Below, in pieces: positions 4,941-39,075 of a DNA stretch of 44,611 bases. This DNA is from a filamentous cyanobacterium CCP3 (GTDB lineage: Bacteria; Cyanobacteriota; Cyanobacteriia; Phormidesmidales; Phormidesmidaceae). Position numbers and translations under genes: made by a program. Location of the stretch: the NCBI GenBank assembly GCA_003022385.1, contig PYGV01000014.1:1-44611 (forward strand). Reading direction: 5' to 3'. The first letter of the stretch is position 1. Each line of letters begins with the position of its first letter. Under the pieces are notes generated by a model that searched no databases, had not been told where the DNA came from, and saw nothing but the letters and a program-made list of their open reading frames with translations.

Positions 4941-5861
4941 TTAGTCCGCCAAATGCCGGGCTAGAAACGGCAGCAGAATGGCCAGTGCTTCTTCCGAATA
5001 TTCTTCTCCCAAACCCAAAGAGCCTGGTGCCATGGCAGACTTCACTCCGGCCATAGCGCTCAGCATCTCCATCTCGGCTTTAGACTTGGGTGGGCTTTGT
5101 TGCCCAACAATGACCAGCTTAGGTACCGTCACCACCTGCATCAAATCTAGCCAGTCAGTGCGCTGCTGCACTGGGTCGAGACCCCCTGTTACAAAGGCTG
5201 CGGAGGCAAATCTGGCTCCCTTAGTTTGGGTTGTTTGGTGCTTAGCCTGCATCAGCTCTGGGGTAATGTGGGCGGCATCGCTGTAGACATGGCGACTCAT
5301 CATCCATCGTAAAAAAGTTGGGTGAGCATTCAAGGCATACAGGGCTTGCCCCACCACCGGGCACCATACTAACCAACGCAGCAGGCTATAGGCCCAGCGA
5401 TGATTGCCCATCGCTGTGGGCAGTGGCCCACGCCAGGTTGGTGCCATCAGCGCGATCGCTCGTAACTGGGGTATGGTACTTCCGTCGGTAGCCAGGGCCA
5501 GGGCGTACCCCGTACTATGGCCAGCCGCTACCAACCCGGCCAACCCTGGCACGATATCCTGAACAAAATCCTTCAGCAGGGCGTGGTAAATCGCTGGGCG
5601 AGTTCGCCAGGCTGGGCGATCAGACTCCCCAAACCCTGGCCAATCTAGGGTAACCACCTCATAGTGCTGAGCCAACGTTGCCGCTACAGTATTGAGCTCG
5701 ACACGGGTAGAGATGCTGCTGAGGGCAGGTAGCAAGAGTATAGGCGGCCCTTCCCCGCGCAGGTCGTAGGCTATAGTGGCTGACTGGTGATGCCAATGCC
5801 AGGCGTAGTATCGCGTTTCGACAGGTGCCTGTGCCTGATCTAAAAGCTTGACTTCAGCCAC
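4941..5861 (-). CDS. Alpha/beta-fold hydrolase
   Basis: A 306-residue protein with a GTG start at 5861. It has the alpha/beta-hydrolase core: oxyanion strand ILLLPALSSIS, DWPGFGESDRP loop, and the nucleophile elbow AGHSTGYA (G-x-S-x-G, near residue 115). Near the C-terminus the usual catalytic histidine position, expected in the stretch APGSLGLGEEYSEE, shows Gly and Glu and no His; the only nearby His is in the last residues (ARHLAD). Either the acid-base residue is displaced or the enzyme is altered. The substrate cannot be told. It is divergent from the PBP2 gene downstream of its start. Confidence 0.82.
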   Translation of the reverse strand: MAEVKLLDQAQAPVETRYYAWHWHHQSATIAYDLRGEGPPILLLPALSSISTRVELNTVAATLAQHYEVVTLDWPGFGESDRPAWRTRPAIYHALLKDFVQDIVPGLAGLVAAGHSTGYALALATDGSTIPQLRAIALMAPTWRGPLPTAMGNHRWAYSLLRWLVWCPVVGQALYALNAHPTFLRWMMSRHVYSDAAHITPELMQAKHQTTQTKGARFASAAFVTGGLDPVQQRTDWLDLMQVVTVPKLVIVGQQSPPKSKAEMEMLSAMAGVKSAMAPGSLGLGEEYSEEALAILLPFLARHLAD

Positions 5862-5954
5862 GCCAGTGTCCTTGTCCTTCTGACAACATCATTTCCTATA
5901 TTAACGCCCAGAATGTGCGGATTGCTTATTCGTAGTTGAGCTTAAGAACCAGCA

Positions 5955-5971
5955 TTTCATCTCGTTTTCAT
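5955..5971 (+). promoter_or_regulatory. Direct-repeat operator box 1, upstream of PBP2 gene
   Basis: TTTCAT-CTCGT-TTTCAT, an exact copy of the island's repeated box (two hexamers with an 11-bp period), ending 56 bp before the PBP2 ATG. OmpR-family regulators bind such head-to-tail repeats. Confidence 0.75.
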
Positions 5972-6027
5972 CGCACAACTGACAAAATGAAAAGCTGATT
6001 CTCATCCTGGCAACTAGATTCACCTGT

Positions 6028-7827
6028 ATGATTCTGACCTCCCGCAATAGTAAAACCTCTAAGGGTTACACAATCCCTTCCTTTGAACGCCGCAGGGTTG
6101 GTAGTCATCCTCGATCACTGCTTATCATTTTGATTCTCTCTGTAGTTTTTTGGGGCGTGATTGGTGGCCGTTTGTTTTATTTGCAGTTGGTTGAAGGCAG
6201 CCGCTACCACCAACTTGCTATTAATAATCGAATTCGCCTGATTTCTAATCAGCCTACTCGGGGCAGAATTCTAGACCGTGATGGACGGGAACTAGCAGGA
6301 AGTCGCCTATCTTACGCAGTATATGTATGGGCATTTGCAGTTCGTGAGCCGAGCTGGGAAAATACTCGCAAACAGGTTGCTCGGCTGCTTAGTATTTCTG
6401 AAATTGAAATTCAAAAACGGTTAGAACAAGTCGATCAAGAATCTCCATTCTTGTTTCGTATTGCTCAGGATATTAGCCCTGCCCAAGTAACAGCATTTCA
6501 AGAACGTATGACAGATCTTCCTGGTGTGGTGGTAAACACTGAAACAGTACGCTACTACCCCAATAATGAATTGGCTGCGCATGCGTTGGGATATCTCGGC
6601 GAAATCTCTGGAGAAGAACTGCAACAACGTACCAATGAGGGGTATCGCCTGGGTGATGTTGTAGGGCAGATGGGTGTAGAAGCCGCCTTTGAACAACAGT
6701 TGCGTGGCGATCGCGGCGGGCAGCAGATTGAAATTGATGGGACGGGGCAGGTCGTCCGCGTTTTAGGCGAAAAATTGGCTCGGCCAGGGCAAGACGTACA
6801 GCTTACTTTAGATTTGGATTTGCAAAAAGCAGCGGAATCTGCCTTAGGAAATAGAGAAGGAGCGATCGTTGCGCTTGCCTCCGAAACAGGCGAAGTTTTA
6901 GCTATGGTTAGTCATCCTGCGTTTAATCCTAATTTGTTTACAAGCCAGATTAACGCAACCCAGTGGCAGCAGCTTCAAAGCAAAAAATTTCCCTTTGTCA
7001 ATCGTGCTTTGCAAGGCTATCCGCCTGCTAGTACGTTCAAAATTGTCACTACTACAGCAGCTTTAGAGTCGGGTCGCTATTCTCGAAGTACTGTATTGCA
7101 AACTTCACCCTACCTTAATTTAGGTGGCATCAAGTTTTGGGAGTGGAATAGATCGGGATTTGGTCAACTAGATTTTGTTGGCGCGATGGCAAACAGTAGC
7201 AATACCTTTTTTGGCAGCGTAGGTATGGGTGTGGGTGAAACGACCCTCATTCGATGGGCACGAAAGTTTGGTTTAGGGCAAAAGACAGGCATTGAGCTGG
7301 GCGGAGAGGCGCACGGATTGGTGCCAGATGCGGCGTGGAAGCAGAAAATTTTTAACGAAGATTGGTACCCAGGTGACACGGTCAATTTCTCCCTAGGGCA
7401 GGGGGCGATTCAGGCGACACCACTCCAGGTGGCAGTCATGTTCGCTGCTATTGCCAATGGTGGTGCTCGGGTTACGCCACATCTGAAAAAGGGTTCAGAG
7501 GCATCGACTCAGCGCCAGTCTGTCGATCTTAGTACCGAGACGTTACAGGTAATTCAGGAGGGACTGAGGGCAGTTGTTGTGCGGGGCACGGGTCAAGCGT
7601 TAAACAGTTCTTCTCTGCCACCCATTGCGGGCAAAAGCGGTACTGCCGAAGACCCGCCGCGTCAGTCTCATGCCTGGTTTGGGGCCTATGCTCCGGCTGA
7701 CAACCCTGAAATTGTTGTCGTAGCCTTTGCTGAAAATTCTGGTGGTGGCGGTGGCTCGATCGCGGGGCCAATGGTAAAACAAGTCTTGGCAGCCTACTTT
7801 GAACCTGAACTGGCACTACAGCCTTAA
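6028..7827 (+). CDS. mrdA: Penicillin-binding protein 2 (class B transpeptidase)
   Basis: A 599-residue class B PBP that cross-links peptidoglycan during cell elongation. It has an N-terminal membrane anchor at about residues 30-53 facing the periplasm, a pedestal domain (about 60-255) and a transpeptidase domain with all three active-site motifs: S335-T-F-K338 (nucleophilic serine), S390-S-N392 and K536-S-G-T539. Length is normal for PBP2 and no lesion is seen. No MreC/MreD/RodA partner is adjacent, so this is likely an accessory copy beside a chromosomal one. The metal-type operator box just upstream suggests induction together with the efflux genes. The enzymatic call is firm; regulation is inferred. 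Confidence 0.93.
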   Translation: MILTSRNSKTSKGYTIPSFERRRVGSHPRSLLIILILSVVFWGVIGGRLFYLQLVEGSRYHQLAINNRIRLISNQPTRGRILDRDGRELAGSRLSYAVYVWAFAVREPSWENTRKQVARLLSISEIEIQKRLEQVDQESPFLFRIAQDISPAQVTAFQERMTDLPGVVVNTETVRYYPNNELAAHALGYLGEISGEELQQRTNEGYRLGDVVGQMGVEAAFEQQLRGDRGGQQIEIDGTGQVVRVLGEKLARPGQDVQLTLDLDLQKAAESALGNREGAIVALASETGEVLAMVSHPAFNPNLFTSQINATQWQQLQSKKFPFVNRALQGYPPASTFKIVTTTAALESGRYSRSTVLQTSPYLNLGGIKFWEWNRSGFGQLDFVGAMANSSNTFFGSVGMGVGETTLIRWARKFGLGQKTGIELGGEAHGLVPDAAWKQKIFNEDWYPGDTVNFSLGQGAIQATPLQVAVMFAAIANGGARVTPHLKKGSEASTQRQSVDLSTETLQVIQEGLRAVVVRGTGQALNSSSLPPIAGKSGTAEDPPRQSHAWFGAYAPADNPEIVVVAFAENSGGGGGSIAGPMVKQVLAAYFEPELALQP

Positions 7828-30478: not shown

Positions 30479-33400
30479 CTACTGCACCAGAGCAGGATCG
30501 CGGGGCTCAGGTTCAAGCTCTGCGGGCGATTGCAGATCCGTCGCCTTGGGAACCAGATGTCGCCCAAACTGGGCGTACAGGGATGGCAGCACCAGCAGCG
30601 TCAGCGCCGTCGAGGTAAATAGCCCGCCCAAAACGACCACGGCCAGGGGCTGCAAAATTTCTTTGCCCGCCCCACTGCCCAGTACCAGGGGCACCATGCC
30701 CAGGGCCGAGGTGAGGGCCGTCATTAAAATGGCCACCAAGCGCTCTGAGGAGCCTTCGACAATCACCTGGCGCAGCGGCATTCCCTGGGCCAGTTTGGTG
30801 TTGTAGTTATCGACTAGCAGCAGACCGTTGCGGGTGGCCACCCCAAACAGGGTGATAAACCCAACCAGCGACGCCACCGACACCACCCCGCCACCTAGCG
30901 CAATGGAGGCAATGCCCCCCACCAGGGCCAGGGGTAGGTTGGCCATGATCATGATCACCCCTAACACCGACTTAACGGCGAAATACATCAGCACAGAGAT
31001 GACGACGATCGCCAGCCCCCCAAACACCAACAGGTTGCGGCTAGCCCGCTGCTCCGACTCAAACTGCCCGCCGTACTGAATGTAGTAGCCCGACGGCAGC
31101 GCTACAGAGGCGCTGACGCGATCTTGAATGGCATCGACCACCGAGCCCAAATCGCGCCCGGCAACGTTAGCCGACACCACAATCAGGCGCGAGACATTTT
31201 CGCGATTGATGGTGTTTGGCCCAGTGCCATAGTCAATACGAGCGACCTGAGCTAGCGGAATTTTTTGGCCCACTGGGGTATCGATCAGTAGATTGCCGAT
31301 CGCCTCCAGGTTGTTGCGGGCGTCATCTTGGAGCCAGACCAGCAGATCAAAGAGCTGCTGCTGCTCTAGCACCTGAGACACCACGCGCCCGTTGAGCGCC
31401 GTTTCAACCACGCTGGCAATTTGCCCTACGGTGAGGCCGTAGCGGGCTGCAGCGGGCCGATCAAACTGAATCTGCACCTGGCGAATGGGCACCTGGGGCT
31501 CCAGTTGCAGATCCACCAGGCCATCGATATCGCGAATCGCGGTTTCAACATCGCTGCCGATGGTGCGCAACTGGTCGAGGTCGGGGCCAAAGATTTTGAT
31601 GGCGATCGCGCTTCTCACCCCCGAGAGCACCTCATCCATGCGGTGGGTGATAAACCCGCCCACGCTGGGGGCAATGCCGGGAATGCGGGCAAACTCTTCT
31701 CGAATGGTTTCGATGGAGGCTTCGCGATCGCGCAATCCTGCTTGGCTCAGCTCGATATCGAGGTGGCCCAAATTGACCCCACCGGCATCGGCATCTCCCG
31801 GTGCTCGCCCCGCCCGCAGCTGCACCGTCGCAAAGCGGGGGTCATCCTTGAGCGCCTCCTGCATGGCAATCCCGGCCTGGTTAGTGGCCTGCAAAGACAT
31901 GCCGGGGTACAGGAGCATGGCGTTCACCAACGAGGGCTCTTGAAATTCTGGCAAAAACACCCGCCCCAGACTCGAAAACATCACCAGCGACGCTACCAAC
32001 GCCGCAGTGGCAATGGCCAGCACCAACTTGGCACGGGCCATCACAAACCGCAACGCCGGTTGATACAGCCGTTGCGACGATCGCGTCACCCAGGTTTCAT
32101 CGCTGGGCAGCGGGCAGTGGGCCAGCAGAATGGCGCAGAGTGCGGGGGAGAGCGTCATCGCCACCAGCGTAGAGGCCACAATCGACACCAGGTAGGCCAC
32201 CCCCATGGGGGCAAAAATCCGGCCCTCCACCCCGGTCAAACTAAAGATGGGGGCAAACACCACCGCAATAATGACGGTGGAAAAAATAACGCTCACCCGC
32301 ACCTCAACAGAGGTGTCATAGACCACCTTAAAGGGATGTTCCGGAGTGCCCGCCAGCTGGTTTTTGCGCAGCCCGCGATAGGCGTTCTCCATATCCACAA
32401 TCGAATCATCGACCACGGAGCCAATGGCGACCGCCAACCCGCCCAGGGTCATGGTGTTAATGCCCTGACCAAAGGCATTGAGAATGATCATGCCCACCAA
32501 AATCGACAGCGGAATGGCGCTCAGCGTAATTACCGCCGTGCGCCAGTTCATCAAAAACAGCAGCAGAATAACCGAGACGATGATGATGCCGTCTCGCAGA
32601 GAACCCAGCACGTTTTCAACCGACGCCTCAATAAAGTTTTCTTGGCGAAAGGTTTCGGTGACGACGACATCCTCGGGCAGAGCCGCTTTTAGCTCCTCCA
32701 TCGCGGCTTCCACCGCCCGTGTGACGGTGGGCGTGTCGTTGAGGGGCTGCTTGTTGACCACCATCACCACTGCTCGCTGGCCCCCCACGCTGCCGTCGCC
32801 CCGCTGGAGGGCGGCTCCAATGCGCACATCAGCGACATCTTGCAGCTTTACGGGGCGGCCATCTCGGGCGGCGACCACCGACTCTTGCAGTTGCTCAATC
32901 GAGTCTAGCCGCCCTACCCCCCGAATGATCAGCTCCTGATCGGGGGTGTTGAGAAACCCGCCTGCGGCATTGACGTTGGCCGCCTCGGTCGCCTCGGCTA
33001 CCTCTTGCAGCGACACATTAAACGCCACCAGCTTGTCTGGATCCACCAGCACCTGGTACTGCCGCACGTCACCGCCGTAGGCAATCACCTGAGAAATCCC
33101 TGGTACCGCCAACAGCCGGTTGGTGACATCGCGATCCACCAGCCGCCTCACCTCCATCAGCGGCGTGGTTTCCGCCGTAAAGGCGTACATCAAAATTGTG
33201 CCGATAGGCGACGAAATCGGCGAAATTTGGGGAATGCCGACCCCCGCTGGCAGCTTTTCCTGCACCTGCTGGAGCCGCTCGGTCACCAGCTGTCGAGCCT
33301 GGTAGACATCGGTACCCCACCGAAAAATGACCTTGACGACCGAAATACTGACCGCCGAGGATGAGCGCACGGTTTCGACCCCTGGGGTGCCATTGACGGC

Positions 33401-33613
33401 ACTCTCAATGGGCAGGGTAATCAGCGCCTCCACCTCTTCGGGGGCCAACCCCGGCGCTTCGGTTTGAATTTCCACCTGGGGAGGCGCAAAGTCTGGAAAC
33501 ACGTCCAGAGGCATTTGGGTGAGGTTGTAAATGCCTAAAAACGTCACCACGATCGCCCCGATGACCACGAGCCACCGCTGGGCGATCGACCATTTCAAAA
33601 TGTTATCTAGCAT
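30479..33613 (-). CDS. Heavy-metal RND efflux pump 2 (CusA/CzcA family)
   Basis: A 1044-residue pump, full length. It opens with the same MPLDVFPDFAPPQVEIQTEAPGLAPEEVE signature as pump 1 and carries the TM4 proton-relay segment VVDDSIVDMEN with Ala at the position of the extra CzcA Asp. It is paralogous to pump 1 over the entire length but with Met-richer periplasmic stretches (LVNAMLLYPGMSLQ). It follows a full-length adaptor gene by about 107 bp and precedes the lipoprotein; a TolC-like gene lies 3 kb away on the same strand. Together these could form a complete tripartite exporter. A long antisense open frame inside it is a shadow. Confidence 0.93.
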   Translation of the reverse strand: MLDNILKWSIAQRWLVVIGAIVVTFLGIYNLTQMPLDVFPDFAPPQVEIQTEAPGLAPEEVEALITLPIESAVNGTPGVETVRSSSAVSISVVKVIFRWGTDVYQARQLVTERLQQVQEKLPAGVGIPQISPISSPIGTILMYAFTAETTPLMEVRRLVDRDVTNRLLAVPGISQVIAYGGDVRQYQVLVDPDKLVAFNVSLQEVAEATEAANVNAAGGFLNTPDQELIIRGVGRLDSIEQLQESVVAARDGRPVKLQDVADVRIGAALQRGDGSVGGQRAVVMVVNKQPLNDTPTVTRAVEAAMEELKAALPEDVVVTETFRQENFIEASVENVLGSLRDGIIIVSVILLLFLMNWRTAVITLSAIPLSILVGMIILNAFGQGINTMTLGGLAVAIGSVVDDSIVDMENAYRGLRKNQLAGTPEHPFKVVYDTSVEVRVSVIFSTVIIAVVFAPIFSLTGVEGRIFAPMGVAYLVSIVASTLVAMTLSPALCAILLAHCPLPSDETWVTRSSQRLYQPALRFVMARAKLVLAIATAALVASLVMFSSLGRVFLPEFQEPSLVNAMLLYPGMSLQATNQAGIAMQEALKDDPRFATVQLRAGRAPGDADAGGVNLGHLDIELSQAGLRDREASIETIREEFARIPGIAPSVGGFITHRMDEVLSGVRSAIAIKIFGPDLDQLRTIGSDVETAIRDIDGLVDLQLEPQVPIRQVQIQFDRPAAARYGLTVGQIASVVETALNGRVVSQVLEQQQLFDLLVWLQDDARNNLEAIGNLLIDTPVGQKIPLAQVARIDYGTGPNTINRENVSRLIVVSANVAGRDLGSVVDAIQDRVSASVALPSGYYIQYGGQFESEQRASRNLLVFGGLAIVVISVLMYFAVKSVLGVIMIMANLPLALVGGIASIALGGGVVSVASLVGFITLFGVATRNGLLLVDNYNTKLAQGMPLRQVIVEGSSERLVAILMTALTSALGMVPLVLGSGAGKEILQPLAVVVLGGLFTSTALTLLVLPSLYAQFGRHLVPKATDLQSPAELEPEPRDPALVQ

Positions 33614-33720: not shown

Positions 33721-35367
33721 CTACTTACGCGAAGGCTCTCCCTCTTCGACCAGGGGAGCAGCAAGGGTTGGCCCAGTGCCGTAGCGAGGATGCCCTTGTG
33801 CTGAAGGCGAAACCGCCTCGTCACCGATCGCTAGGGCATAGGTCGGACGCTGTCGCCTGGCCCACCAGATTCCGGCAGCAAAGGTGGTCATGGCGATCGC
33901 ACCACTGCCCAGCCCCATCGCCCACCAGGGGATGCCCGCAGTTGCAGCCGCCTCGACGGGGGCGGCGGGTTCCTCTTCTGCTTCAGCACTCCCGCCCCGC
34001 AACGACTGGGCATAGAGCTGGTTAGCCCGCTGGGTAACGATTTCATCGCCCTCAAACAGGCCACTGAGCACTTCGACTTGATCGCCCGCCGTTCTTCCCA
34101 GGGTGACGTCAACGGGTTCAAAGGCATTGCCATTGCGCACAAACACTAGGGGTTGGCCGTTGGCTTCTACCACCGCTGACTGGGGAATGGCCATCACGGC
34201 CTCAGAAGTGCTCTCGGTGAGCACTTCCAGGGACGCAAACATACCGGGTTTGAGCGTACCATCGGCATTGTCTAGCTCGGCCTGCACAGGTACGACCCGA
34301 GTTTCGCCATCAACTACCGAACCAACCGTGGTAATTTGTCCTTCAAAAATTTGATCGGGCAGGCTGGCTACGGTGATTCGCACCCGTTGCCCAGGGGATA
34401 CCTGAGGCAGATCTTTTTCAAAAATATTGGCGGTGGCCAATACCGTGCGATTGTCCACGATAGTCATCAGCACCGCGCCTGCGTCCTGGGCGGATTGCCC
34501 CAGGGTGACGTCGCGATCGGCAATGGTGCCTGCGATCGGCGCTTTGATGGTGATGGTGCCGTCTGGGTTAGCCGTGGCCCCCAGCTGCTGCAATCGGGTT
34601 TGGTAGGTCTCTGTACTCAACTGAGCGCGAGATTGCGCCACATTCAAAGCAGTCTGCGATCGCGCCACCTCGGTACGGGCATTCAACACCTCTAACCGAC
34701 TCTCTGCCTCGGTTAAGGCCCGCTTGGCGTCGGCCAGCCCCGCCTCTGAGGCCAGCAGCTCCCGGCGGGCAATCGCCCCTTGCGCGGCTAGTTCCGAGTC
34801 GCGATCGTATTGCTCTTGGGCCACCCGCAGATCGGTTTGGGCTTCTGCAATGGCCCCTAGGGCAATCTGCTGCTGTTGGGCATAGGTCTGCTGAGCTAGC
34901 TGCAAATTGGCCTCGGCCTGCTGCACGTCTCCCTGTCGCTCAGCAGAGTTTTCCAGGGCGGTCACTCGCAATTCAGCCAGCTCTCCACTAGTGATGACGG
35001 CTAATGCCTGGCCCGCTTCCACGCGCTGCCCTGGCTCCACCAGCAGCTTAGTCACCGTACCGCCGACGGGGTTCGTCACCGATACCTGTCGCCCCGGCGA
35101 GGCTTCAATTTGCCCCGTTGCCTTTACGCCAAAAGCTAAAACCTGGCGCTTTACGGGCTCTACAGTCAGACCAATACGGTCAGCAATCTCAGAATCAACC
35201 TCAATGCCGGTTGGAGATGCTCCAGCTCCACTCCCCTGAAACTCATCTCCATGGCCAGCATGGGCCAAGACCTCGCCGGCCGGGGCCAGCAAGAGCATCA
35301 GCAAGACGGCTACAGGGAGCGATCGCCCTCTAGCCGCGATACAAAAGCGATCAAAGATAGCTGTCAT
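33721..35367 (-). CDS. Full-length RND membrane-fusion protein (CusB/CzcB-like adaptor)
   Basis: A 548-residue adaptor from the ATG at 35367. An in-frame upstream start at 35517 is rejected because it would place operator box 9 inside the gene and the signal peptide 50 residues in. Order: signal peptide (ending VLAHAGHGDEF), barrel-sandwich half (VTKLLVEPGQRVEAGQALAVI), long alpha-hairpin (roughly 150-275, rich in Gln/Ala/Glu), second lipoyl half (ITIKAPIAGTIADRDVTLG), beta-barrel, membrane-proximal domain (AIPQSAVVEANGQPLVFV), then an unusual C-terminal TM (WWAMGLGSGAIAMTTFAAGIWW) and cytosolic tail. It bridges pump and outer-membrane channel. Adaptors usually have only an N-terminal anchor, so the C-terminal TM, shared with the short protein at 10056, is notable. 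Confidence 0.93.
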   Translation of the reverse strand: MTAIFDRFCIAARGRSLPVAVLLMLLLAPAGEVLAHAGHGDEFQGSGAGASPTGIEVDSEIADRIGLTVEPVKRQVLAFGVKATGQIEASPGRQVSVTNPVGGTVTKLLVEPGQRVEAGQALAVITSGELAELRVTALENSAERQGDVQQAEANLQLAQQTYAQQQQIALGAIAEAQTDLRVAQEQYDRDSELAAQGAIARRELLASEAGLADAKRALTEAESRLEVLNARTEVARSQTALNVAQSRAQLSTETYQTRLQQLGATANPDGTITIKAPIAGTIADRDVTLGQSAQDAGAVLMTIVDNRTVLATANIFEKDLPQVSPGQRVRITVASLPDQIFEGQITTVGSVVDGETRVVPVQAELDNADGTLKPGMFASLEVLTESTSEAVMAIPQSAVVEANGQPLVFVRNGNAFEPVDVTLGRTAGDQVEVLSGLFEGDEIVTQRANQLYAQSLRGGSAEAEEEPAAPVEAAATAGIPWWAMGLGSGAIAMTTFAAGIWWARRQRPTYALAIGDEAVSPSAQGHPRYGTGPTLAAPLVEEGEPSRK

Positions 35368-35441
35368 AGGCGTGCCCTTGAACCACTCAATTACAGTCTT
35401 TGGAGAAAAATGCCATCGTTCCCCAAACATCCCACAGAAAA

Positions 35442-35458
35442 ATGAAATCAGGATGAAA
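35442..35458 (-). promoter_or_regulatory. Direct-repeat operator box 9, upstream of the RND operon
   Basis: Plus strand ATGAAATCAGGATGAAA, identical to the copB box over all 17 bases. It reads toward the adaptor gene 75 bp away. Exact, 11-bp period. Confidence 0.8.
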
Positions 35459-35763
35459 TTTGTAGCTTTAATTGAGCAATCAATAGATTGCGCAGAGAAA
35501 ATCCCCCAAAAGTTCAAGCTGAATCGCGCTAAAAGTACGTCTAAGCAAAGACTATGGCGAATAAGATTAGGCTTCTACTCTAATTCAAAAAGCTTAAAAA
35601 CTTCATAAAGTTTCTAAGTGAAAAGATGCACTCTAATTTTTCTAACAAAACTTTCATTCTTGACTTAGGTAGCTATCACCAAATTAGCTGAAATGGGATC
35701 TACTATGACAAAACTTCCGCCAATAACCAAGCGCGGATCCTAGCAGTTCTCAAGGAGAAGACA
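35459..35763 (+). other. AT-rich leader of the small secreted peptide gene A
   Basis: There is no gene here. CTCTAATTTTTCTAA then AAAACTTTCATT (35631-35660) is repeated almost exactly at 36222-36251 ahead of peptide gene B, so the upstream regions were duplicated along with the genes. A single TTTCAT is present in each copy but without its 11-bp partner. Confidence 0.6.
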
Positions 35764-35934
35764 ATGAAAAAATATGTTCTTTCTGCACTAACTATTGCAC
35801 TAGCTACAATTGCCTTTGCTCCTGTGGCCAGTGCCTCTAGCCAAACTAACCTCCGTGGCTTAGCTGCCGAAAAAGGCAGACCTGTAACCATGAGTGAACT
35901 TATTCAGCATAACCGTGATTATAGGGGTTCATAG
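35764..35934 (+). CDS. Small secreted peptide A (degenerate EF-hand paralogue)
   Basis: A 56-residue precursor, shorter than usual gene-finder limits. A strong Shine-Dalgarno AAGGAG (35752-35757) stands 6 nt before the ATG. The signal peptide is MKKYVLSALTIALATIAFAP with a cleavage-like VASAS. The mature part is about 32 residues, starting SQTNLRGLAAEKGRPVTMSE and ending HNRDYRGS. It aligns with peptide B (36356) at both ends, but the calcium-loop residues are replaced (AAEKGRPV in place of the Asp-rich loop). The function is unknown; a periplasmic or secreted peptide of the metal island. The coding call rests on the SD, signal peptide and a paralogue 600 bp away. Confidence 0.82.
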   Translation: MKKYVLSALTIALATIAFAPVASASSQTNLRGLAAEKGRPVTMSELIQHNRDYRGS

Positions 35935-35944
35935 ACTTTTTTTA

Positions 35945-35972
35945 AGTGATAGCGCTTCAAATCGCTATCACT
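35945..35972. repeat. Perfect 10-bp inverted repeat after peptide A
   Basis: AGTGATAGCG (35945-35954) and CGCTATCACT (35963-35972) with an 8-nt loop. The T run precedes rather than follows it on the plus strand, so it is not a standard terminator; it could stabilise the transcript 3' end. Confidence 0.6.
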
Positions 35973-36003
35973 CATCAAGATGTCGCTCATCTCAATAGAC
36001 TCT

Positions 36004-36039
36004 AAAGCCACCATTGCTCAAAAGCCTGGTGGCTTTTTT
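36004..36039 (+). terminator. Intrinsic terminator of peptide gene A
   Basis: AAAGCCACCA (36004-36013) pairs with TGGTGGCTTT (36028-36037), followed by T residues to 36039. The remaining stretch to 36221 holds no gene that I can support. Confidence 0.85.
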
Positions 36040-36355
36040 GGAAAAGCATATAGTGTCTCGTTATGTTTAAGAAGATCTAACAAGCAAAGTACTATATAGC
36101 CCCTCTTAATCAAGTGAGGCACAGCAGAAAATTGAAAATCTTGCTGCATGGCAGCCTTATCTCTTGATTCGCACCTCACTAGAGTAGGGTGTGCTATATG
36201 ATTTAATGGCCATAAACTTTGCTCTAATTTTTCTAATAAAACTTTCATTATTAGCTTATGCAATTATCAGCCAATATTTGACCAGAAGATCTACGATGAT
36301 AGGAGTTTCGCTGATGAATGCAAGGCGAAATCTAGTTGCTTTCATAGAGAATAAA

Positions 36356-36532
36356 ATGAAAAAGTACTTTCTTTCCGTGCTGACAATTGCAATGGCTTCA
36401 ATGGTGCTATCGCCTGTGGCAAGTGCTTCAGGACAGACAAATCTTAATGATTTATCTGCTGATCTGAATGGGGATGGCATTGTCTCCCTTGGCGAACTTA
36501 GGTTTCACAACGCTGAATACAGAGGGAAATAG
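36356..36532 (+). CDS. Small secreted EF-hand peptide B
   Basis: A 58-residue precursor. The ATG at 36356 is preferred over upstream in-frame starts because it begins the signal peptide MKKYFLSVLTIAMASMVLSP with a VASAS cleavage site, matching peptide A. The mature part, about 33 residues, contains a complete EF-hand/dockerin-type calcium loop DLNGDGIVSLGE: D1, N3, D5, G6, V8, S9, E12. There is a single loop, so it may pair as a dimer or act as a small Ca(II) or metal binder. It lies between the RND operon and the TolC-like gene. A weak SD is the main doubt. Confidence 0.8.
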   Translation: MKKYFLSVLTIAMASMVLSPVASASGQTNLNDLSADLNGDGIVSLGELRFHNAEYRGK

Positions 36533-36643
36533 TCAGCGATCGCCTTTGAGAAAAGCAAAAAGAGTAATGACTCTTTAGTTTCTTCAGGGGGCAGCTTCTC
36601 TTCACAGACAGATTCAAGTTACCTTACTCACTCTAAAAACTGC

Positions 36644-36683
36644 AAAGCCCACCGTAGATTAACGCTACGATGGGCTTTTTTTT
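36644..36683 (+). terminator. Intrinsic terminator of peptide gene B
   Basis: AAAGCCCACCGTAG (36644-36657) pairs with CTACGATGGGCTTT (36664-36677) with one mismatch, then a run of T to 36683. It also separates this gene from the leftward TolC-like gene ending at 36748. Confidence 0.88.
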
Positions 36684-36747: not shown

Positions 36748-38154
36748 CTAGTCTAAATAAGGTTGTTCAGTTGCTCTTTGTATTGCAGCCAACGACCGAT
36801 TGTAGTCTATGATGGCGTTTGCTAAATTGCCTTCTGCTTCAGCTAAATCCCCAATGGCACTTAATACGTCTAGTTGAGTGCCTACACCTGCATTAAACCG
36901 CAAGTTGGCCAATCGAAGTGCCTCCTGCGCTTGCTGTACCGCTACAGTAGCCGTAGTGATATTTTCTTGATTAGCCGTTAAATTAAAATAAGCATCTTCA
37001 ACTTCCAAGCGAATACTGTTGCGAGTTTGGGAGAACTGAGTTTCTGCAATTTCAGACTCCTTATCTTGCTGAGCCGCCGATGCTGAAGCAGCACCCCCAT
37101 CAAAGAGTTGCCACTGTAATCTAGCGCCCACGCTGAACCCATCATTCAGTGCCGTTGAATTGCCGCTCAAAGCCTGCTGAAGGCCGTAGTTGGCAACTAA
37201 GCTAAGGTTAGGTCTTACCGCTGCCAGGGCAATTTGTCTCTGGCGTTGGGCAATCGTGCGTTGGGCCAAAACCTGCGATAGCTCAACGCGACTTTGATAG
37301 GCCAGTACAATACTTTCCTCTAAGGTCAGCGGCCAGCCTCCAGCAATTTCGACAGGCAACGTCTCAACATTTACTGAAGCTGGTAAATTTAGCCTGCGTG
37401 ATAGTTGTCTCTGCGCAATTTGTCGTTGGCTTTGAACCTGCGTCAAGTCTTGGCGGGCATTGGCCACCTGCACTTCTGCCCGTAGCACGTCAAACTGAGT
37501 GCCTACGCCAGCACGCTCTCTTAAAATTGTGTCCTGTAGATTGCGCTCCGCTTCATCTAAAAAGGCCTGGCTAATCCGAATTTGCTCAACGGTCAGCTGT
37601 AAGGCGTAATAATCATTGGCGGTATCGAGCAGCAGTTGAGCCCTACGCCGGTTGATATCTAGTTCAGCGACCCGAATTTGCTCTTCGGCTACTTGTATTC
37701 TGGCTTGTCTACCCCCTGACAAGCCCAAGTCATAAAGGGCCTCAAGGTCTCCTCTTAAAGTCGTTTGGTTGTCATTCTCTTCGCTATTACTTTGTAATGT
37801 TGATGCTAAACCAACGGTTGGATACAGTTCTGCTCTAGCTTCTCTAAGGGCAAACTGACTGCGTTCTAGCTCTAGTAAGGCAATCTGAAGATCTTCGTTG
37901 TTGCGCAATGCTAGCTCAAAAGCTTCTTCTATAGAGAGAGTCTCTGTCGTAGTAATTTCAACAACTTCTGGCTGAGTTGGCAAAAATAGCGGACTAGGCT
38001 CAGGGGAAAGACGGTCAAGTCGTGAGGTATCTTCTCCTGGCTGAGGCAAAGATTGAGCAAGGGCTCTAGATGCAGTCAGGGGAGCAACATCCAACGCAAT
38101 CACCATGGCCAGACTGGCTAGGGTAGATGTAGAAAGTCGACAATTTTGACGCAT
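36748..38154 (-). CDS. TolC-like outer-membrane efflux protein
   Basis: A 468-residue precursor from the ATG at 38154 (a TTG three codons upstream is less likely). The signal peptide ends ALAQS. Two OEP repeats (about 75-260 and 275-460) are built of long helices with the typical TLSIEEAFELALRNNEDLQIA opening and paired motifs ERAGVGTQFDVLRAEVQVANA and NAGVGTQLDVLSAIGDLAEAE. It forms the trimeric outer-membrane channel for tripartite pumps and could serve both RND systems here, neither of which has its own channel gene. It lies 41 bp after the orphan regulator gene on the same strand, so the two are probably cotranscribed under box 10. Confidence 0.92.
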   Translation of the reverse strand: MRQNCRLSTSTLASLAMVIALDVAPLTASRALAQSLPQPGEDTSRLDRLSPEPSPLFLPTQPEVVEITTTETLSIEEAFELALRNNEDLQIALLELERSQFALREARAELYPTVGLASTLQSNSEENDNQTTLRGDLEALYDLGLSGGRQARIQVAEEQIRVAELDINRRRAQLLLDTANDYYALQLTVEQIRISQAFLDEAERNLQDTILRERAGVGTQFDVLRAEVQVANARQDLTQVQSQRQIAQRQLSRRLNLPASVNVETLPVEIAGGWPLTLEESIVLAYQSRVELSQVLAQRTIAQRQRQIALAAVRPNLSLVANYGLQQALSGNSTALNDGFSVGARLQWQLFDGGAASASAAQQDKESEIAETQFSQTRNSIRLEVEDAYFNLTANQENITTATVAVQQAQEALRLANLRFNAGVGTQLDVLSAIGDLAEAEGNLANAIIDYNRSLAAIQRATEQPYLD

Positions 38155-38194
38155 GTTTAACAAAGAAATGAGTGCTCTTAAATCAACAAATAAA

Positions 38195-38923
38195 CTACGC
38201 CAAAGCTAGAGAGAGGGAATTTCTAGATCGCCCCCTAGCAGCAGTCTTGAGAATGTATCCAAACCCTCGAATGGTGTGGATTAGCCGTTCTTTTTGACCG
38301 TCTTCCATCTTTTTTCGCAGAGAGCAAATGTAAAACTGGAGCACGTTGCTCTCATGGCCAAGATCGCAGTCGTAGCTCCAAACAGCATCAATGATCTGTG
38401 TTTTTTTAAGCGCTTCCTTAGGGTGCTCAAGAAAGTAAGCCAGTAAATCGAACTCCTTGGCTGTCAGGGTTAATTCATGACCGCCTCGATATACCGTCCG
38501 GCTGTAGTGGCTGAGTGTCACATCAGAGAAGACAAGTATTCTCGATGCATCTTCGCTATTGTTTCTCCTTAAAAAAACTTTAATGTGAGCCAAAACTAAA
38601 TCTAGACTTATGGGTGTAGTGACATAGGCATCAGCCCCTGCTTCTAGAACAGCCGCTTGCTTTTGAGGAGTAGTGTCCTTATCGATATAGAGAATGGGAA
38701 TTGGATTGCCTGTAGTCCTTAGCCTTCTGCATATATCAATAGCTGTTAAATCAGAAATAGACGAGCTAATAATTAGCGCGTCTGGCTCAATTTGGCGAAC
38801 GTTGACAAGGCCGCTAAAACCATCTTGATAAACACTGACGAGGTAGCTCTCTTGGATTAGCTCGGACTCAATTAAACGAGAAAAGCTAGATTCATTTTCT
38901 ATGACAAGAATATGTTTGGCCAT
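38195..38923 (-). CDS. Orphan OmpR-family regulator with inactive receiver
   Basis: A 242-residue protein from the ATG at 38923 (GAGGTGG upstream as SD; a GTG at 38938 is an alternative). The fold of receiver plus winged helix is clear, but the receiver has lost every key residue: the acidic pair is E9-N10, the phospho-acceptor position is S53 (IISSSISDL), the Thr/Ser switch position is D81, and the conserved Lys is T103 (VTTP). The DNA-binding domain is well kept, with recognition segment SNVLQFYICSLRKKM. No kinase is adjacent. It must work without Asp phosphorylation, or as a competitor of the two RppA proteins. It precedes the TolC gene. Confidence 0.9.
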   Translation of the reverse strand: MAKHILVIENESSFSRLIESELIQESYLVSVYQDGFSGLVNVRQIEPDALIISSSISDLTAIDICRRLRTTGNPIPILYIDKDTTPQKQAAVLEAGADAYVTTPISLDLVLAHIKVFLRRNNSEDASRILVFSDVTLSHYSRTVYRGGHELTLTAKEFDLLAYFLEHPKEALKKTQIIDAVWSYDCDLGHESNVLQFYICSLRKKMEDGQKERLIHTIRGFGYILKTAARGRSRNSLSLALA

Positions 38924-39075
38924 ATAAACCCACCTCACTCTCTAAAGTGAAAGCACCAGAAAGCAGGGCAAAATAAAGCCTATTCTAGGCGCTAGAACAT
39001 AGGCTCTTCTTAACACTCTTAGCATCAAGCTTTCTGAGTCTTTCAGTGTTTGTCGCTACAGTATGGCAAGTAAAA

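Follow-up and report, generated by a model that had tools for sequence, protein, structure and literature searches.

The analyzed window (44,611 nucleotides of contig PYGV01000014.1 from the filamentous cyanobacterium CCP3, Phormidesmidaceae) contains two short genes on the plus strand, here denoted A (35764-35934) and B (36356-36532), which encode peptides of 56 and 58 amino acids, respectively, each with a Sec-type signal peptide. These genes lie where an earlier note on this DNA had placed them, and the features that it listed as common to both, namely the signal peptides, the VASAS site, the QTNL motif and a similar C-terminal end, are all found; the signal peptides end in VASA and the C-terminal end is HNxxYRG. 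At 171 and 177 nt, both genes exceed the usual minimum of gene callers. The longest mechanically derived open reading frame of B begins at 36191; the only start common to the orthologues is 36356. The pair sits between the gene for a CusB/HlyD-type adaptor (33721-35517, minus strand, with the orthologue start suggesting a position of about 35368), next to which a CusA/CzcA-type RND pump (ACR_tran family; 30479-33613, minus strand) is encoded, and the gene for an outer membrane efflux protein of the OEP/TolC type (36748-38163, minus strand) that is convergent with B. One gene beyond B, an OmpR-type response regulator with a degenerate receiver domain, denoted RR*, is encoded (38195-38938, minus strand). 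The wider metal island (7862-43298) includes, as judged by eye, a second CusA-like pump, two regulator/kinase pairs and multicopper-oxidase-like genes as well as, according to Pfam searches, a P-type ATPase and proteins of the DUF305 and DUF326 families.

Peptide B carries a canonical 12-residue EF-hand loop, DLNGDGIVSLGE, in which the ligands at positions 1, 3, 5 and 12 and the glycine at position 6 are all present. The same residues are not found in peptide A, where a deletion of two residues and the replacement of ligands 1, 3 and 5 leave EKGRP in place of the loop. The claim that paralogous exported peptides, with and without a calcium-type loop, are encoded side by side inside a metal-efflux island is thus supported. 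The EF-hand score of B, 15.4 bits, is below the Pfam gathering cut-off of 25.9 (PF13202 / PF00036), and all matches of B in Pfam and NCBIfam are sub-threshold EF-hand matches, whereas A has no Pfam EF-hand match and is assigned to no family by Pfam or NCBIfam. When profiles of solved structures are searched, the EF-hand proteins that match do so mostly over their loop (best E 0.001), and the AlphaFold2 model of B, with a helix at residues 30-37, a loop and a helix at 45-56, has a pLDDT of 63, so that the helix-loop-helix is weakly predicted and of low confidence. Each gene is followed by its own T-tailed hairpin, as previously proposed. The terminator-like hairpin of A with its T run spans positions 36004-36036 (plus strand; -17.4 kcal/mol, z -3.6), and the one located between B and the convergent efflux gene spans 36644-36678 (plus strand; -18.2 kcal/mol, z -4.6); of these two, a mechanical terminator scan lists only the latter, on the minus strand. 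Another strong hairpin, with 10 pairs and no T tail, is found 3' of A (35945-35972, plus strand; z -5.3).

Both reading frames are retained in orthologues from related genomes. Using tblastn against the fetched loci, we find A and B adjoining in three named records (L006, Leptolyngbya ULC186bin1; L007, Nodosilinea LEGE 07298; L008, Phormidium tenue FACHB-1052), whereas L009 has only B and L010 only A; among further loci, L063 of genome G339 has both genes and L076 of genome G013 has A alone. Altogether, among the eight genomes with the cassette, five contain both genes, two contain only A (G272 and G013) and one contains only B (G007). The whole-gene dN/dS ratios, computed for pairs with both kinds of change, are 0.06-0.26 for A and 0.06-0.15 for B, and when only the mature parts are compared, dN is again lower than dS, the ratios reaching about 0.36. 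The values for A, including those for its mature part, imply that this gene is maintained by selection despite the lost loop. The conclusion that A and B are real tandem genes evolving under purifying selection in the relatives is therefore well supported by sequence comparison. The earlier note further suggested that B is a sensor and A its non-binding antagonist, and the common flanks and end motif of the two peptides, together with the consistent absence of the loop from A-type peptides, would fit such a relationship. However, A and B occur apart in three of the eight cassette genomes, and in G013, which is listed as 100% complete, the single match is A. This distribution makes an obligate pair unlikely, and we consider the antagonist scenario to be very improbable.

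The window peptides belong to a larger family, and a third member is encoded on another contig of the same genome. At E values up to 0.001, a profile of the family matches in 45 of the order's 63 genomes and, at the level of the class, in 45 of 388, tallies that take in some matches to signal peptides alone. All but two of these 45 class genomes belong to the Phormidesmidaceae, the family of the window genome; the exceptions are G049, where the full match lies on a contig of only 3.3 kb, and G280, where part of a 1919-residue frame is matched. Forty stretches were fetched around family members, and among 50 peptides counted (L081, the second copy of the L010 record, was excluded), 42, that is B and 41 others, have a canonical loop, 12 residues long and similar to DxNxDGxVxxxE, seven are A-type peptides, all of which lack it, and the remaining one is a longer form whose repeats are irregular. 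The C-terminal end is strongly conserved, most commonly as YNRDQR or HNRDYR. A family of predicted exported single-EF-hand peptides that, among the 388 class genomes, is almost confined to one family of cyanobacteria is thus well supported. These peptides differ from previously described EF-hand proteins in that a single hand is contained within about 33 mature residues following a signal peptide, in that the EF-hand scores fall below the Pfam cut-offs, and in the existence of A-type members that have no loop. CSE (asr1131), the calcium sensor of filamentous cyanobacteria, is likewise a small cyanobacterial EF-hand protein and is not known to have a signal peptide. The CSE of Anabaena is described as an intracellular sensor with, putatively, two EF-hands (PMC7065334), in contrast to the one hand and the N-terminal signal peptide of the present family, which does not fit the definition of CSE.

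The neighborhoods of the family members differ according to the C-terminal end. For peptides ending in NxxYR, a gene for a CusA-type RND pump is found in the fetched stretch at all 10 unique loci, compared to none of the 33 loci with other ends, some of which are represented by short stretches (two long open reading frames, in L075 and L101, were excluded from this comparison). The tie to metal islands is therefore a property of one subfamily and does not extend to the entire family. The association within this subfamily is what would be expected if the peptides were periplasmic metal buffers or pump accessories of the efflux island. A general accessory role of this kind, one of the options raised previously, is nevertheless unlikely given that most family members are distant from CusA-type pumps. 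Moreover, mature A and mature B contain no cysteine and only one histidine each, the acidic ligands are gone from A, and the pump genes of the window have no match better than E 0.1 to the operator described below, so that even for the island itself this explanation appears improbable.

The DNA upstream of A and B turned out to be the most informative part of the locus. The similarity between the two upstream regions had been noted and left uninterpreted; it is real and extends beyond the approximately 30 bp originally claimed, to 54 nt with 81% identity (35631-35684 upstream of A and 36222-36275 upstream of B, both plus strand). Both elements have the same geometry, with five half-sites at a pitch of 9, 11, 11 and 11, starting at 35633, 35642, 35653, 35664 and 35675 for A and at 36224, 36233, 36244, 36255 and 36266 for B. 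At 26 nt past the start of the last half-site, there is a -10-like motif, TACTAT for A (35701-35706, plus strand) and TACGAT for B (36292-36297, plus strand), both identified as motif matches only; a mechanical scan of the window picked up neither of these. Upstream of the family members, half-sites of the form YTHAK make 79 pairs at 11 bp compared to 2.8 expected, a number reached in none of 500 dinucleotide shuffles. Over all helical spacings, there are 272 pairs versus 29.3 expected (the largest value among the 500 shuffles being 52), whereas off-helix spacings yield 51 versus 38.9. These statistics come from 41 of 49 regions, a set from which the two L063 regions had already been excluded and from which near-duplicates were then removed, and they have to be read in light of the facts that the YTHAK pattern was picked after viewing the sequences and that related promoters are not independent. 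Chains of at least three half-sites are found in 35 of 51 family regions but in only 12 of the 393 regions that precede the other genes of these loci; for chains of at least four, the family count is 11 of 51, compared to 0 of 393. With near-duplicates removed, the family numbers become 25 of 39 and 8 of 39. The longest chains comprise up to six half-sites, and the most common half-sites are CTCAG, TTAAT, CTAAT, CTTAG and TTCAT.

The tandem direct repeats at a 10-11 bp pitch, located 5' of a -10 motif, are read as an operator of the OmpR/PhoB type because the 11-bp pitch matches that of cyanobacterial Pho boxes. In particular, the SphR Pho box consists of tandem direct repeats of 8 bp separated by 3-bp linkers (PMC1906773), and some of the TTTAAT sites in the present set resemble its consensus, CTTAACCT. 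The most common half-sites differ from this consensus and form chains of up to six. That this upstream element is an OmpR/PhoB-type operator common to most members of the family is well supported by these sequence patterns. Since the element is kept by members located in differing neighborhoods, the operator travels with the peptide gene. A sequence-only profile of the C-type operator matches the promoter of the third peptide in the window's own genome with an E value of 1.3e-18, and weak matches that are not followed by a peptide gene have E values of 0.27-0.72. Across the 26 genomes of the genus, this profile yields 18 sites at E values up to 0.01, 13 of which are located 5' of EF-hand peptides, many of them from the training set. 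A profile of the A/B operators, in the same genomes, finds the A/B promoters only, plus one weak site in G272 (E 0.01), where no peptide of the sought kind was found. One of the 18 C-type sites, a strong match in G017 (L120, C17:72280-72357; E 4.6e-13), has no peptide gene seen behind it and is apparently a remnant.

In the search of the window's own genome, the C-type profile also finds an extra site (E 1.3e-3) upstream of a gene of a different kind, which encodes an exported repeat peptide, (DFxQLREENLDK)n (L103:1073-1450, contig C232). Further loci of this repeat family are L139-L152, L155, L157 and L158. Four of the 18 sites in the genus likewise precede its members (in G000, G007, G012 and G005), and the profile matches 6 of 19 repeat-family loci searched. 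Because a profile of EF-hand-peptide promoters finds promoters of repeat peptides in four genomes, the operator gains support from outside its training set. Inspection by eye of the 17 Sec-type repeat loci reveals CTCAG repeats in 10, with a CACTAT -10 motif at similar spacing; the remaining seven (L143, L144, L149-L152 and L158) have no such repeats. One repeat peptide scores 38 bits against YadA_stalk. This similarity, and the occurrence of the same operator in front of a class of exported repeat peptides, are compatible with a role in matrix formation or adhesion, in which the EF-hand and repeat peptides would be exported parts of a sheath or biofilm held by Ca2+. Such a use would be comparable to that of EbfG, a group of small secreted proteins in Synechococcus elongatus, an organism in which proteins of this kind are reported to enable biofilm formation (PMC4997328). 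However, the mature EF-hand peptides are only about 30 residues long with one hand, A has no loop at all, and the repeat peptides are a different family, which makes a structural role of this kind possible but, on balance, doubtful.

Several loci directly link the peptide genes to two-component systems. In L070, L079 and L073, the first two of which are near relatives, the EF-hand peptide gene adjoins genes for a histidine kinase and an OmpR-type regulator (hereinafter the HK-RR pair). The best NCBIfam model for the L070 regulator is NblR (NF045914), with a score of 281.5 bits, below the equivalog cut-off of 300. This regulator is present in 21 of the 26 genus genomes at an identity of at least 73%, with a match to its kinase next to it in 17 of the 21 loci. 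It is found in all 15 genomes that encode an EF-hand peptide, scored as present only for matches under 1e-10, compared to 6 of the 11 that do not (p 0.007). When genomes with operator-bearing repeat peptides are added to those with EF-hand peptides, the numbers are 17 of 17 versus 4 of the 9 others (p 0.0019). The genomes without the regulator include three small ones, so part of this co-occurrence may stem from genome size and from relatedness among the genomes. The promoters of the peptides in L070, L079 and L073 are among the weakest operators, with a chain of only two half-sites in register under the strict pattern, and a regulator of the NblR-like cluster is located beside the peptide gene or one gene away at only 13 of 45 unique loci. 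There is nonetheless a genomic link, and an NblR-like regulator is the type likely to act on the operator. Autoregulation is unsupported: within the window, RR* itself has no match to the operator below E 0.1, and the operator profile has no match in the 21 loci around the HK-RR genes, including the two with the peptide.

The proximity of kinase genes raises the question of whether the peptides act back on the regulatory system. CpxP and ZraP are small exported products controlled by envelope two-component systems, to which the present peptides can be likened in general terms and not by sequence. A feedback accessory of this kind would report calcium or the state of the envelope to the kinase. 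The adjacency to the HK-RR pair in three loci and the response-regulator type of the operator are consistent with such a function, as is the presence of a kinase gene directly 3' of a C-type peptide gene in five loci (L070, L079, L066, L082 and L083), with PAS domains detected by Pfam in four of these kinases and by similarity in that of L079. In Caulobacter, a periplasmic EF-hand protein takes part in a regulatory loop: CaBP, described as a protein of 133 aa with three hands, is tied to the ECF sigma factor SigV (PMC13171946). The shared feature is a Sec-exported EF-hand protein tied to a regulator; the size, the number of hands and the ECF sigma factor are different. However, there is no kinase next door at most of the loci, and RR* has no phosphate acceptor, so that the loop in the metal island need not include a kinase. 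We therefore regard feedback to a kinase as rather unlikely. The data favor peptides of the calcium type that are exported and the genes of which are under the control of a response regulator.

The candidate regulator in the metal island is RR*, which is present in exactly eight of the 26 genus genomes, the same ones that contain the A/B cassette. In RR*, the phosphorylated aspartate is replaced by serine, and one residue of the acid pocket as well as the conserved threonine and lysine positions are also changed, whereas the DNA-binding output domain is intact (80.5 bits against Pfam Trans_reg_C for the window copy), a combination typical of pseudo-receivers. The best NCBIfam model for RR* is again NblR, at 175.4 bits and thus below the equivalog cut-off of 300. 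NblR functions in phycobilisome degradation. In searches with RR*, the only other match among those listed is the HK-RR regulator, in 21 of the 21 genomes with matches. The closeness of the two proteins is derived from these best matches and not from the tree, in which RR* is on a long branch and is not placed as the sister of the HK-RR regulator; the tree included CopR-like regulators as the only outside sequences, with L063 and L081 excluded. For Synechocystis CopR, which was considered as well, the searched passages of PMC4182526 yielded no site. In two further metal-island loci, L074 and L086, the peptide gene adjoins a diverged regulator of the NblR-like branch that retains the aspartate.

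The recognition helix differs between the two settings: L070, L073 and L079 have SNIIEVYIRYLR in their HK-RR regulators, RR* has SNVLQFYICSLR, and the regulators of L086 and L074 have SNVLHVCISSLR or TNVLHVCISSLR. The half-sites differ as well, with those ending in CAG accounting for 5 of 46 in metal-island promoters compared to 55 of 131 elsewhere (p 1e-4; L063 and L081 excluded, with sites and promoters that are not independent of one another). Given that both the helix and the half-sites distinguish the metal-island members from the others, the regulator and its operator seem to have changed together.

The most plausible scenario, to which we assign a probability of roughly 0.55, is that A and B are output genes of an NblR-like OmpR/PhoB regulator, in a module that was copied beside an efflux operon. 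Under this scenario, A and B would have arisen by tandem duplication of a gene that encodes a small secreted peptide with a single EF-hand, both copies having a separate promoter, operator and terminator, and an NblR-like regulator would bind the half-sites at a pitch of about 11 bp just 5' of the -10 motif and activate transcription. In the relatives, the peptide is expected to be made under the control of the conserved HK-RR pair, whereas in the metal island, the module would have been copied next to the CusBA/OEP-type efflux operon along with the diverged RR*. Lacking the phosphate acceptor, RR* probably achieves its activity in some other way, for which there are precedents in NblR, which needs no phosphorylation (PMC12632262), and in ChxR of Chlamydia, an OmpR/PhoB-type regulator that works without phosphorylation (PMC3960148) and to which RR* is likened in general terms, not by sequence. 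The peptides are predicted to be exported by the Sec pathway. After cleavage, B, with about 33 residues, is expected to bind Ca2+ or a similar hard ion, probably as a dimer, and its site of action would be the cell envelope or the matrix. Peptide A would retain the flanking helices along with the conserved C-terminal end and act without calcium.

Few parts of cyanobacterial calcium signaling are known, and the annotation of exported proteins of very small size is poor; in the open-licence literature, we found no paper on the EF-hand peptide family, the LREENL repeats or the operator. The calcium-type family described here arrives with a promoter element, which it has in common with another peptide family, and with a candidate regulator, so that binding, regulon and function become directly testable. 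The A/B pair itself looks like a peptide-plus-regulator module that was taken up by a metal-efflux island. Furthermore, A and RR* make a natural pair of broken-site paralogues, from which the calcium loop and the phosphate acceptor, respectively, are gone and which are nevertheless kept in several species. A broader and more speculative possibility is that the EF-hand peptide, the NblR-like regulator and the operator form a portable cyanobacterial module that became free of both calcium and phosphorylation in metal islands. On entry into these islands, the regulator would have lost its phosphate-accepting site, the recognition helix and operator would have changed jointly, and one of the peptides would have lost its calcium loop, while the parent circuit would drive a regulon of small exported peptides from two unrelated families. 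If correct, this would be a case of a circuit based on calcium and phosphorylation being rewired into one that depends on neither.

Finally, some peptides with unusual architectures were noted alongside the two families. The L101 locus (5843-6265) encodes a 140-aa member of the EF-hand family with two extra EF-hand/NFNRDQRD copies, the loops of which are irregular. Short peptides in L126, L153, L154 and L167 combine a double-glycine leader with a VDFDQLRxENLxKD-like core, which suggests that they are ABC-exported relatives of the Sec-exported repeat peptides.
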